Of a DNA stretch of 39,453 bases, positions 1,897 to 29,923 are shown piece by piece. The DNA comes from Candidatus Epulonipiscium sp. (GTDB lineage: Bacteria > Bacillota > Clostridia > Lachnospirales > JAAYNZ01). The translations under genes and the position numbers were made by a program. Position 1 is the stretch's first letter, and each line of letters opens with the position of its first letter. The notes under the pieces are model-generated. The model did no database searches. It was not told the origin of the DNA and worked only from the letters and a program-made list of their open reading frames with translations. Location: NCBI GenBank assembly GCA_012524135.1, contig JAAYSE010000018.1:1-39453 (forward strand), written 5' to 3'.

Positions 1897-3063
1897 TGTT
1901 TCTATGTTTTTTCTTTCCACAAAACGTTTTAACATAGTGTATAAAACAGCAAAAATAGGAACACCTAAAAACATACCTAAGACGCCAAATAAGTATCCAA
2001 AAATGATAATGGAAAAAATCACCCAAAATGGACTTAATCCTGTGGATTCTCCTAAAATTTTTGGGCCTAGTACAATACCATCGAATTGTTGAAGAACAAA
2101 TATAAAAATAGCTAAGCCAAGAGCTTGGATAGGACTCCTAATTAATACAATAGCAATAGCAGGAATAGCCCCAATAAAAGGTCCAAAATAAGGGATCATA
2201 TTAGTAATACCAATAATAAAGCTAATTAATAAAGAATAAGGCATTTTCATGAATTGCAATCCAATAAAACAAAGAATTCCAATGATTAAAGAATCAATCA
2301 TTTTTCCTACAAAAAATCGTAAAAACATATCGTTGCTTTCTTTTCCTATAGAGATAATTTTTTTAGCTATAGCAGGACCTAAGAAGGCAAAGAGAATTTT
2401 TTTTAATCCTTCTATAAAATTTTCTTTATCATTTAATAAATAAAAAGAAATTACAAAACCAAGAACAATATTTAAAAGTCCAGAAGTTAAGGTCTTGGAA
2501 AACCCATAAATTGCGGGAACTAAATCACTGAGGATATTGGTAGAGGTATTAAATAAATGAGGTAAATTGTTATTGATAAATTCTTCAATAAAATATAGAT
2601 CAGACATTTCAGTGGAACCTGTCCAATGTTCTAGATGTTGTGTTAAGAATTCTGTAAGTCTAGTTAGTTCTGTAGGAATTCTACGAATTAAATCAGAAAT
2701 ACTACTTGCAATTTGAGGAAGTCCAAATATGAGCATAATGCTAATAAAGCCAATAACGATCAGATACATTACTATAATAGAGAGAATTCGGCGAAGTTTA
2801 GAGGATTGCTTTTTTTCCCTAATAGTATGTAAAACTTTTGTTTCAATCCAATTAACACCAGGACTTAATAAATAAGCGATAAAAATACCATAAAGAATAG
2901 GGGCTAAAATTTTAGTAATTTTATTAAAGCCAAGAGCGATAGAAGACCAATTGCCTAATATTTTTTCAAATAAAATACTTGATATAATAGTTAAAAAGGC
3001 ATAAAAGCTAATAATGAAATATTTATGATTCCATTCAATACGGCGAATTGTAAGCACCTCCAA
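1879..3063 (-). CDS. AI-2E family transporter (PerM/YtvI-like permease)
   Basis: A membrane protein of up to 394 residues with the AI-2E exporter layout: two N-terminal hydrophobic helices, a polar amphipathic central region (about 110-190), then five or more C-terminal helices including the family-typical GxTNMIPYFGPFIG segment and a LGPKILGESTGLSPFWV segment. Members have been linked to autoinducer-2 export, Na+/H+ antiport and sporulation; substrate here is unknown. The largest frame starts at TTG 3063, but no ribosome site precedes it; the best Shine-Dalgarno (GGAGGTG, 3061-3055) lies inside the first codons and points to ATT at 3048, giving 389 residues. A second paralogue, ytvI, lies at 5473. 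Confidence 0.85.
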   Translation of the reverse strand: MEVLTIRRIEWNHKYFIISFYAFLTIISSILFEKILGNWSSIALGFNKITKILAPILYGIFIAYLLSPGVNWIETKVLHTIREKKQSSKLRRILSIIVMYLIVIGFISIMLIFGLPQIASSISDLIRRIPTELTRLTEFLTQHLEHWTGSTEMSDLYFIEEFINNNLPHLFNTSTNILSDLVPAIYGFSKTLTSGLLNIVLGFVISFYLLNDKENFIEGLKKILFAFLGPAIAKKIISIGKESNDMFLRFFVGKMIDSLIIGILCFIGLQFMKMPYSLLISFIIGITNMIPYFGPFIGAIPAIAIVLIRSPIQALGLAIFIFVLQQFDGIVLGPKILGESTGLSPFWVIFSIIIFGYLFGVLGMFLGVPIFAVLYTMLKRFVERKNIETKEKEL

Positions 3064-3086
3064 GAGTATATTTTTCGTCTGATACT

Positions 3087-8623: not shown

Positions 8624-8872
8624 AATCCAATATCGTAAAAACAAAGAAAAGAAATAGTAAAAGTGTAATCTTTTTACAGAGAGGAAATCTGTGGCTGAAA
8701 GATTTCTAAAAGAACATTTTGAACCCATCTTGGAGTTCTAGGTTGAATAATAGTAGACACTAGCGGTTTCCTACCGTTATTAGGACCAAGTGGATCTATA
8801 TAAAGATAGATCAACAAGGGTGGTACCACCGATAACCTCGGTCCCTTTTGGGATAGAGGTTATTATTTTTTT
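8624..8872 (+). promoter_or_regulatory. Proline T-box riboswitch (tRNA-sensing leader of proS)
   Basis: The leader holds the conserved T-box AAGGGTGGTACCACCG (8816-8831), whose GGTACC-type bulge pairs with the uncharged tRNA acceptor end, overlapping a terminator: ATAACCTC (8832-8839) with GAGGTTAT (8856-8863), then a T-run to 8872. An AGAG motif near 8680 and a GAA-CCC-ATC-TTGGAG segment near 8720-8736 mark the Stem I specifier region, with CCC, a proline codon, at the expected place. Uncharged tRNA-Pro would stabilise the antiterminator and allow proS expression. Confidence 0.92.
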
Positions 8873-27372: not shown

Positions 27373-27420
27373 CGTCCTCGTAGGCCTATTTTCATTATAG
27401 GAAACGAGGACGTTGTATTT
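27373..27420 (+). terminator. Terminator of nfnAB
   Basis: CGTCCTCGT (27373-27381) pairs with ACGAGGACG (27404-27412), with inner CCTAT/ATAGG, followed by a T-rich run. Confidence 0.85.
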
Positions 27421-27491
27421 TTACAAAGAAAGAATTTTTCTTGAAAGTTAAAATAGAATTTATAATATAGAGTTGTATTTTTTTATAATGG

Positions 27492-27526
27492 AAGGAGGAA
27501 GAGCGTTTTACGCTCAAATAATAATG
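27492..27526 (+). promoter_or_regulatory. Ribosome site separated from its start by a hairpin
   Basis: AAGGAGG (27492-27498) lies 25 bases before ATG 27524, but GAGCGT (27501-27506) and ACGCTC (27510-27515) form a hairpin between them; when folded, the gap is about 10 bases. No nearer ribosome site exists. Confidence 0.55.
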
Positions 27527-28117
27527 ACGGAAGAAGTGAGCTTTAAAAAATTAAAAGAAATTTTTTTCATTTTTCTTAAATTGGGAGCGTTTACTTTTGG
27601 AGGGGGATATGCCATGATTCCTCTTATTGAAGAAGAAGTAGTGCATAAGAGAAAATGGATTAAAGAAGAAGAAGTTATTGATGTATTTGCTGTAGCTGAG
27701 TCCATTCCAGGAGCGATAGCCATTAACTCATCAACATTTATTGGATATAAAATTGCAGGCCGAAAAGGAGCTATAGCAGCGAATATAGGAGTTATCCTTC
27801 CTTCAGTGTTTATTATTACATTGATTGCAAGTGTATTTGGAAGGTTTCAAGATAATCCTATTATACAAGCTGCTTTATTAGGAGTTCGTTCTTGTGTTGT
27901 AGCCCTCATTGGAGTAGCAGCTTTTTCTTTATCAAAAAAGGCTCTTCGAGATAAATTAACAGTTCTTCTTTGGCTAATTACCGTTCTTTGTATTTTAATT
28001 ATGGATCTACATCCTATTTTTATGATTATTTCAGGAGGTCTTATTGGTCTTTTAGTGATGAAAATCATGCCAGATAAAGTAGAAGAAATCATAAAAGGAA
28101 GAGGAGATAATGAATGA
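27524..28117 (+). CDS. Chromate transporter, N-terminal half protein (CHR family)
   Basis: 197 residues from ATG 27524 (MTEEVSFKKLKEIF). CHR signature FGGGYAMIPLIEEE near 24-37, AESIPGAIAINSSTFIGYK and several membrane helices (about 15-30, 80-105, 110-130, 145-165, 168-185). Full ChrA has two such halves; here they are two adjacent genes, as in other Firmicutes pairs, and probably assemble as a heterodimer. Substrate is chromate or sulfate by family; not proven. Upstream in-frame ATGs at 27473 and 27488 have no ribosome site. The stop overlaps the next ATG in ATGA. Confidence 0.88.
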   Translation: MTEEVSFKKLKEIFFIFLKLGAFTFGGGYAMIPLIEEEVVHKRKWIKEEEVIDVFAVAESIPGAIAINSSTFIGYKIAGRKGAIAANIGVILPSVFIITLIASVFGRFQDNPIIQAALLGVRSCVVALIGVAAFSLSKKALRDKLTVLLWLITVLCILIMDLHPIFMIISGGLIGLLVMKIMPDKVEEIIKGRGDNE

Positions 28118-28689
28118 AAATATACCTTCAGTTAATTTGCACATTTTTTAAACTAGGATTATTTAGTTTTGGAGGGGGATATGCCATGATTCCCCTAATT
28201 GAAAAAGAAATAGAAAGTCATGGATGGATGACAGCTACCGAGTTTTCTAATATTATTGCTATTGCAGAAATGACGCCAGGGCCTATTGCAGTAAATTCAG
28301 CTACTTTTGTAGGCTATAAGACAGCGGGAATTTTAGGGGGAATTATTGCTACTATAGGAGTAGCATTACCTTCTTTGTTATTAATTTTATTGGTATCTCA
28401 GATTTTTTTCAAATATCAAGATCATCCCGTTAATAAGATGATTTTTTATGGTATTCGTCCTGTTATTGTAGGATTAATTACAACAGCTACTGTTTTTGTT
28501 GGGAAAACAGCATTTTTTCATTGGGAAGTTTCTTTAGCAGGAATAAAAGATCTTTTTGGATTTTTAAATTTTAGTAGTATTGCGATTTGTATTATTTCTT
28601 TTATTGGAATGCTTCGTTTTAAAATACATCCTATTTTAATGATTGGTATTTCAGCGGTACTCGGTGTAGTTTCTATGTATCTTTTCTAA
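28114..28689 (+). CDS. Chromate transporter, second half protein (CHR family)
   Basis: 191 residues, beginning in ATGA overlap with the first half gene, which implies translational coupling. The same CHR signature is present (FGGGYAMIPLIEKE near 19-32, EMTPGPIAVNSATFVGYK), with helices spread over the length and a hydrophobic C-terminus. It complements the other half to form the antiparallel two-domain transporter. A terminator follows. Confidence 0.88.
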   Translation: MKIYLQLICTFFKLGLFSFGGGYAMIPLIEKEIESHGWMTATEFSNIIAIAEMTPGPIAVNSATFVGYKTAGILGGIIATIGVALPSLLLILLVSQIFFKYQDHPVNKMIFYGIRPVIVGLITTATVFVGKTAFFHWEVSLAGIKDLFGFLNFSSIAICIISFIGMLRFKIHPILMIGISAVLGVVSMYLF

Positions 28690-28760: not shown

Positions 28761-28789
28761 TTGACAAAAGAATAAAAAACCATTATACT
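28761..28789 (+). promoter_or_regulatory. Promoter of the fab-acc operon
   Basis: TTGACA (28761-28766), 17-base spacer, TATACT (28784-28789). The start point falls near 28796 inside the FabT-like sites. Confidence 0.85.
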
Positions 28790-28817
28790 TTGATTATCAA
28801 ACTATTTGAAAGTCAAA
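28789..28817 (+). promoter_or_regulatory. Two tandem FabT-like operators
   Basis: TTTGATTATCAAA (28789-28801) and TTTGAAAGTCAAA (28805-28817) share the TTTGA-N3-TCAAA form of FabT boxes of Streptococcus-type bacteria, centres 16 bases apart. They cover the end of the -10 and the start point, so binding should repress. A FabT-like gene is in the operon. Confidence 0.75.
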
Positions 28818-28852
28818 GTATTTGAAATGGAAAATAATAAGGAGAGGGTTTT

Positions 28853-29923
28853 ATGTTTCTATTACCTCTACAAATTGGTTCTTTAACGGCTTCTGTTCCT
28901 ATTGTTCAAGGAGGAATGGGAGTAGGTGTTTCTCTATCTAATTTAGCTTCTGCAGTAGCAAATGCAGGTGGAATCGGTGTTATTTCTGGCACTCATATTG
29001 GATTTAGAGAACCTGATTTTTATCAAAATCCTACAAAGGCGAATATACGTGCTTTAAAAAAAGAAATTCAAAAAGCAAAAATGCAAAGTCCACAAGGGGT
29101 TATAGGAATTAATTTTTTAACTGCTTTTAATCATTATGCAGATTTAGTCAAAGTAGCAGTAGAAGAAAAAATAGATATTATTTTTTCAGGTGCTGGACTT
29201 CCGGTAGATTTACCTGCTTTTGTAAAAGGAAGTGCAACAAAGATTGTTCCTATTATTTCTTCAGCTAAAGCAGCAGTAGTGATTACAAAATTATGGCAAC
29301 GTCGATATGACTATCTTCCGGATGCTCTTGTGGTAGAAGGCCCTGAGGCAGGAGGGCATTTGGGATTTACTTTTGATCAATTAAGAAAAAAACAGGAAAA
29401 TACCAATCTTAGTGTGATTTTACAAGAAGTAAAAAAAGCGATACATCCTTTCGAAATAGAGGGAAAAAAGATTCCTTTAATTGCAGCAGGAGGTATTTTT
29501 ACAGGAGAAGATATTCAAAAATATTTAAAATTAGGGGCCTCTGGAGTACAAATGGGAACTCGATTTATTGCGACAGAAGAATGTGATGCTCCCTTTTCTT
29601 TTAAAGAGCAATATATCAATGTTTCTTCGAACAATCTTAAGTTAATCCAAAGTCCTGTAGGACTACCAGGGCGGGTTTTATATACCCCCTTTATTAAAAA
29701 AATGGAGAATGAAAAAGTTCCTGTACAACGTTGTCTTGGATGTCTGAAAACTTGTCAGCCCCAAGAAACTCCTTATTGTATTTCTGAAGCTTTGATTCAA
29801 GCAGCGAGAGGGAATGTGATGAAAGGATTATTTTTTGCTGGTAGTAGTGTTTGTCGTATAAAAAAGATGATGACAGTCAAAGAATTAATCAAGGAGTTAG
29901 TAGATTCTCTAAATCAATCATAG
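28853..29923 (+). CDS. FabX-like FMN flavoprotein with Cys cluster (NMO/FabK superfamily)
   Basis: 356 residues of the nitronate monooxygenase/FabK TIM-barrel family: PIVQGGMGVG at the FMN site, VVEGPEAGGHLG with His169 as the likely catalytic base, AAGGIFTGED and GVQMGTRF. Unlike plain FabK, it carries Cys294, Cys297, Cys301 and Cys309 (CLGCLKTCQ and PYC) and an AGSSVCRIKK end. A [4Fe-4S]-binding Cys set at this place is the hallmark of FabX of Helicobacter, a dehydrogenase/isomerase that makes the cis double bond of unsaturated fatty acids. It is the first gene of the operon, where streptococci have the isomerase FabM; the FabX role is inferred, a nitronate monooxygenase being the alternative. 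AGGAGAGG is upstream. Confidence 0.7.
   Translation: MFLLPLQIGSLTASVPIVQGGMGVGVSLSNLASAVANAGGIGVISGTHIGFREPDFYQNPTKANIRALKKEIQKAKMQSPQGVIGINFLTAFNHYADLVKVAVEEKIDIIFSGAGLPVDLPAFVKGSATKIVPIISSAKAAVVITKLWQRRYDYLPDALVVEGPEAGGHLGFTFDQLRKKQENTNLSVILQEVKKAIHPFEIEGKKIPLIAAGGIFTGEDIQKYLKLGASGVQMGTRFIATEECDAPFSFKEQYINVSSNNLKLIQSPVGLPGRVLYTPFIKKMENEKVPVQRCLGCLKTCQPQETPYCISEALIQAARGNVMKGLFFAGSSVCRIKKMMTVKELIKELVDSLNQS

Follow-up and report, generated by a model that had tools for sequence, protein, structure and literature searches.

Organization of the chrA1 region

The window, that is, the whole stretch of 39,453 nucleotides analyzed here, carries two consecutive forward-strand genes for short proteins of the chromate transporter family. 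The first, chrA1 (positions 27524 to 28117), codes for 197 amino acids from the ATG at 27524 and matches Pfam PF02417 (E 3e-53; the scanned frame began at TTG 27473 and the match extends from residue 29 on). The second, chrA2 (positions 28114 to 28689; PF02417, E 4.6e-51), overlaps chrA1 by the sequence ATGA (positions 28114 to 28117). We compared this locus with that of G001, a MAG of Candidatus Epulonipiscium sp. that was the single same-genus genome found and that shows 87–88% protein identity with the window; its chrA pair lies on contig L032 (JAAYNZ010000218.1). Both G001 and G000, the genome of the window, are in many contigs. The G001 pair also has a 4-nucleotide overlap, an arrangement which suggests that translation of chrA2 is coupled to that of chrA1.

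A strong Shine-Dalgarno (SD) sequence, AAGGAGG, is located on the forward strand at positions 27492 to 27498. It is complementary to the 3′ end of the 16S RNA: GGATCACCTCCTTTCT was found in G000 at C19, and a pattern search recovered from this genome a 16S 3′ end with CACCTCCTTTCT, on which ground we take AAGGAGG as a true SD match. When the anti-SD pattern was searched in G001, none was found. The last G of the SD is separated by 25 nucleotides from the A of the ATG at 27524, and this spacer is filled by the sequence GAGCGT-TTT-ACGCTC (positions 27501 to 27515, forward strand), which is predicted to fold into a hairpin of six base pairs with a 3-nucleotide loop. Its 5′ arm (GAGCGT, 27501 to 27506), loop (27507 to 27509) and 3′ arm (ACGCTC, 27510 to 27515) add up to 15 nucleotides lying wholly between SD and start codon. 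From the hairpin to the ATG runs an 8-base A-rich linker, AAATAATA (positions 27516 to 27523, forward strand), which, unlike AAGGAGG, has no match to the 16S 3′ end. Once the hairpin is subtracted, 10 nucleotides of spacer are left (2 before it and 8 behind it). This looped-out geometry had been described in the first-pass annotation, and it can indeed be read directly in the sequence. No SD-like motif closer to the chrA1 ATG than 25 nucleotides in the window, or 26 nucleotides in G001, was detected.

Further upstream, a possible sigma-70-type promoter (TTGAAA-N16-TAATAT, positions 27441 to 27468, forward strand) is a weak candidate with a 9/12 pattern match, and promoter-like matches around chrA1 are at chance level (7 observed, 7.4 expected). 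Between the gltA-like gene and chrA, a terminator-like stem CGTCCTCGT/ACGAGGACG followed by TTGTATTTTT was seen by eye at positions 27373 to 27422; the terminator scanner, whose loop limit was 8, did not list it. As for the hairpin in the spacer, a reading as terminator was rejected, no U-run being present after it.

The start codon of chrA1

The distance of 25 nucleotides is meaningful only if chrA1 starts at 27524. The upstream frame of chrA1 is open for 72 nucleotides in the window and two in-frame alternatives exist there, ATG 27488 and TTG 27473, which had been raised as starts that would undo the looped-out reading. As conserved starts, both have the comparison with G001 against them. 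No in-frame ATG, GTG or TTG was found upstream of the chrA ATG in that genome, and one extra base in the hairpin loop of G001 amounts to a +1 indel that would put the upstream ATG and TTG of the window out of frame there. Moreover, the homologues at loci L033, L034 and L035 start at the residue equivalent to ATG 27524, 72 nucleotides before the FGGGYAM motif. Taken together, the loop indel, the homologues and the fact that G001 offers no other in-frame start identify ATG 27524 as the start codon. These three homologues have their SD 7, 6 and 5 nucleotides from the start, respectively, and none has a hairpin; in the L033 alignment, a gap falls at the hairpin position. The paralogous chrA of G001 (C181) likewise has an ordinary SD. 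We also considered a leader peptide encoded over the hairpin and rejected it, since the short frames share the reading frame of chrA in the window but not in G001, and no SD was visible by eye.

Conservation of the SD-hairpin-AUG block

The leader of the G001 gene reads AAGGAGG-GA-GAGCG-TTTTTT-CGCTC-AAACAAGA-ATG. All 7 SD bases, all 10 bases of the 5-bp core stem GAGCG/CGCTC and the residual spacing of 10 nucleotides are kept, the linker AAACAAGA being equal in length to that of the window, and the complete spacer measures 26 nucleotides as compared to 25. The loop between the core arms is 6 nucleotides long, one more than the five unpaired-or-weak bases of the window, the sixth pair of the window stem (U-A) is lost, and the G001 hairpin has a predicted energy of −6.5 kcal/mol. 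Thus, in this comparison of two sequences only, the core is invariant and there is no compensatory pair change. A fixed core stem with a loop varying in length and sequence is as expected of an RNA hairpin. Conservation of the stem in related genomes, proposed earlier as a check, is thereby borne out in the one same-genus genome out of one.

Identity at fourfold sites between the window and G001 was 37/76 for chrA1, 29/68 for chrA2, 47/118 for the fabK-like gene and 52/108 for the tail of the gltA-like gene. At the chrA1 value, the chance of finding ten stem bases unchanged is (37/76)^10 = 7.5e-4, an estimate in which fourfold sites are a mere stand-in for neutral intergenic DNA.

The DNA upstream of the SD is unrelated between the window and G001, so that conservation sets in at the SD and goes with the start codon rather than with a promoter. 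In G001, positions 876 to 2937 of L032, between the gltA-like gene and chrA, contain a LacI-family gene and a 313-amino-acid frame that has no Pfam match, both absent from the window. The edge of this rearrangement is close to the chrA SD. A nagB-like assignment of the 313-amino-acid frame was dropped, as Pfam gave no match.

A conserved, perfect inverted repeat near a possible promoter might also be a DNA operator, bound by a repressor between promoter and start codon and placed between SD and AUG only incidentally, and the LacI-family gene lies just upstream of chrA in G001. However, this gene does not adjoin chrA in the window, the upstream DNA is not common to both genomes, and the distance between the half-sites GAGCG and CGCTC is N5 in one genome and N6 in the other, which is unusual for a rigid dimer site. 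Each genome has just one further copy of the pattern GAGCGN4-8CGCTC, that of G000 lying behind the S15 gene, and there is thus no sign of a regulon. An operator would also leave the 25-nucleotide SD gap unexplained, and we consider this explanation very unlikely.

Predicted folding of the leader

The isolated hairpin (27501 to 27515) has a predicted energy of −6.6 kcal/mol and is the best fold of the 25-nucleotide spacer, the complete 25-mer reaching −8.1 kcal/mol. The value of −6.6 kcal/mol was reached by 231 of 30,000 random 25-mers drawn from the fetched genome DNA and by 64 of 20,000 shuffles of the chrA1 spacer; as the spacer itself reaches −8.1, this is a lenient threshold for 25-mers. 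By itself, the hairpin is unusual but not decisive within a window of 39 kb, and thus suggestive only. It is its conservation in a second species that lifts it above chance. The wider leader is not unusually structured (z −0.88 for 111 nucleotides and −0.77 for 61 nucleotides; −0.82 for the 62-nucleotide G001 counterpart).

In longer transcripts (167 and 177 nucleotides), the core stem is predicted to pair with a probability of 0.95–0.99 at 37°C; in the shortest G001 transcript (ending at 3037), the value is only 0.47. The SD itself is predicted to pair in some of these transcripts. When the window transcript ends at 27640 or 27700, GGAGG is paired with the coding sequence at 27620 to 27625 (0.84–0.95), and when it ends at 27560 or 27600 the SD is not paired in this way. 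The G001 SD finds other partners, with a pairing of up to 0.87 in the transcript ending at 3077, and two competing ones at about 0.3–0.44 each in longer transcripts. Such SD-coding pairing would hinder initiation. We read it as incidental, because the partner is not common to both species and because ribosomes would disturb the pairing.

The surroundings of the start codon bear on another explanation, in which the hairpin either is neutral or helps to stabilize the mRNA, and initiation takes place on A-rich unstructured sequence without SD, or with the distant SD as a standby anchor. The linker and ATG of the window are predicted to be unpaired (0.90–0.99), as such initiation would have it, and SD-poor starts may occur in G000, where a scan of 566 gene-like ORFs gave 29 that lack any near SD-like motif within 60 codons. 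In G001, however, the linker and ATG are predicted to be paired in part (unpaired down to 0.38). Nor would this explanation account for an SD that is strong in both genomes (7 bases in the window, GAAAGGAGG in G001) and a core stem, both kept at a fixed residual distance while half of the fourfold sites have changed. We regard this alternative as unlikely.

The proposal that translation depends on temperature or a ligand fared less well than the geometry. A regulated RNA switch, in which folding and melting of the hairpin in response to temperature, or to a protein or ligand at the U-rich loop, would alter the SD-AUG spacing, is permitted by the geometry, since the SD would be too far away once the hairpin unfolded, and a transporter family named for an oxyanion could profit from control. 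At 55°C, however, the core stem is predicted to be mostly formed in both species: the outer five pairs of the window transcript are formed at 0.94–0.97 and the sixth at 0.72, and the stem pairs of G001 at 0.72–0.84. The loop, which would be the likely binding site, is conserved only in being U-rich, and the predicted SD partners differ between the species. An Rfam search of the leader gave no family at the gathering score (best E 0.22, with 19.4 bits against 90 needed). With the stem predicted to be mostly formed at 55°C, the loop differing and no Rfam family, a thermometer or riboswitch finds no support, and we give very little credence to a switch of this kind.

Distribution among homologues and within genomes

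Relatives were sought in sets of 56 and 392 genomes, the own genome included, of which 41 and 288, respectively, had a match; the loci compared were the best-scoring matches of these genomes and a further 45 loci from genome contigs. Besides G001, no second genome sharing the element was found among these best-scoring loci, nor was a relative found in the viral contigs searched. N-termini of ChrA were scanned at 97 of the best-scoring loci by means of the FGGGYAM-like motif (L002 and L003 being left out as repeats of the window and G001), which gave 124 redundant rows, loci without such a motif giving no row. A distant GGAGG or AGGAG together with a stem of at least 5 pairs, at least 3 of them G-C, was present only in the window and G001. 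Twelve of the 124 rows had no SD at all, and in some the only SD was distant and weak.

The pattern GGAGGNNGAGCGN3-8CGCTC was then searched order-wide and gave 10 sites in 9 of 392 genomes. Those in G000 and G001 are at the chrA start. The site at L149 (G390) has an ATG 10 nucleotides behind it, but was rejected as gene-internal: the upstream frame is open for 201 nucleotides and GAGGTGG stands beside that ATG. None of the remaining 7 is closely followed by the start of a long frame.

For similar genes within G000, 799,319 bases (the window and 100 stretches, or 0.80 of 1.95 Mb) were scanned. Out of 593 six-frame ORFs of at least 130 codons, overlaps included, 79 had GGAGG 15–40 nucleotides before some early start, and in 7 of these, chrA among them, the fold was at least as stable as −5.0 kcal/mol. 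In each of the other 6, an ordinary SD stands at an early start, one within 60 nucleotides of the frame beginning, whereas chrA has one only at an internal ATG. No other gene combining a distant SD and a hairpin with the lack of a nearer SD at an early start was thus found in these 0.80 Mb. Among the 29 SD-less ORFs mentioned above, which do not include chrA on account of this internal ATG, a single one (L195) has a distant SD, with a weak fold of −2.4. Over 404,937 bases from G000 and G001, a less refined scan showed many internal ATGs with weak stems; in the same number of bases of the two genomes, 135 of 226 GGAGG-ATG pairs were 6–10 nucleotides apart, and 23 were 10 nucleotides apart. As far as scanned (0.80 Mb of G000), the layout would thus be a lineage-specific gain in a single gene, with no regulon.

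The further copy of the stem pattern in G000 is the hairpin GAGCGGAGAAATCCGCTC (L143, positions 1501 to 1518; C197:14091-14108), directly behind the ribosomal protein S15 gene and ahead of a T-rich stretch; it resembles part of a terminator. The identical sequence is present in G001 (C176).

A putative accommodated ribosome binding site

A distant SD with no nearer one, a hairpin between it and the start codon, a workable residual spacing and the retention of all three in a close relative are together best explained by an accommodated, or split, ribosome binding site of the type of T4 genes 38 and 25, and on the sequence evidence we hold this reading to be likely. The 30S subunit would pair with the strong SD AAGGAGG, and the adjacent hairpin would remain folded and be accommodated on the ribosome. 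The spacer of 25 nucleotides (26 in G001) would then act as one of about 10, allowing the ATG at 27524 to reach the P site. The hairpin would be a constitutive spacer-shortener that sets the rate of initiation at chrA1 and, by way of the 4-nucleotide overlap, probably at chrA2 too. The looped-out site is real and conserved and probably functional, and the example is a chromosomal one; in this model, the hairpin is probably folded during initiation and needed for translation.

In a stricter version, translation of chrA1 would have an absolute need for the folded hairpin and be silent when it is unfolded, and a protein that bound the U-rich loop or the stem could then turn chrA1 and chrA2 on and off. 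Some control of the chrA1 hairpin by a protein may exist, but we think the strict version quite unlikely; if true, cells and not phages would here have a translational switch that works through spacing.

In Escherichia coli, the hairpin domain of thrS is part of its autoregulation. The thrS site, too, is split by a hairpin which the ribosome can accommodate without unfolding it, but according to PMC3936740 its hairpin domain spans −48 to −14, apparently further upstream, while that of chrA1 lies between SD and AUG. The T4 genes are closer in layout. According to PMC3014915, a hairpin shortens the SD-AUG distance from 22 to 5 nucleotides in gene 38 and from 27 to 11 nucleotides in gene 25, stem-destabilizing mutations reduce initiation, and the gene 25 case has reporter assays and chemical probing behind it. 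The initial likening of chrA1 to gene 38 holds for the shortening of the spacing by a hairpin between SD and AUG, and is now extended by the conservation in G001, the lack of a nearer SD and the uniqueness scans; the residual spacing differs, being 5 nucleotides in the phage gene and 10 in chrA1. Gene 25 is the nearer parallel as described there (PMC3014915): the SD is too far away in both (27 nucleotides in T4, 25–26 in chrA1), a hairpin stands between, and 11 and 10 nucleotides, respectively, remain. The gene 25 layout is found in close T-even phages and is missing from more distant relatives, just as that of chrA1 is present in a close relative and absent in distant ones. Unlike gene 25, chrA1 is a bacterial chromosomal transporter gene, and its case is known from sequence alone. 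As to the remainder of 10 nucleotides, the aligned SD-start spacing of Staphylococcus aureus averages 2–3 nucleotides longer than that of E. coli according to PMC13009471, which makes a spacing of this length plausible for ribosomes of a related type; the words 'hairpin' and 'stem-loop' are absent from the main text of that paper.

A limited phrase search of the open-licence literature found the SD-hairpin-AUG layout recognized only for T4-type phages, which does not prove its absence in cellular genes. If confirmed, chrA1 would be a natural case from cells in which a hairpin folded between SD and AUG is tolerated by the ribosome, and would show that gene callers or ribosome-binding-site models that look only near the start can miss or misplace such starts.

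Other features of the window

Downstream of the chrA genes, the sequence ACTTTGATTATCAAACTATTTGAAAGTCAAAGT (positions 28787 to 28819), which we take to resemble a FabT operator, precedes a fabK-like gene (at 28853) that matches Pfam nitronate monooxygenase. G001 retains the first half of this sequence, and there a MarR-family gene comes after the fabK-like gene. Elsewhere in the window, a T-box leader (RF00230, 133 bits) was identified at positions 8635 to 8849.
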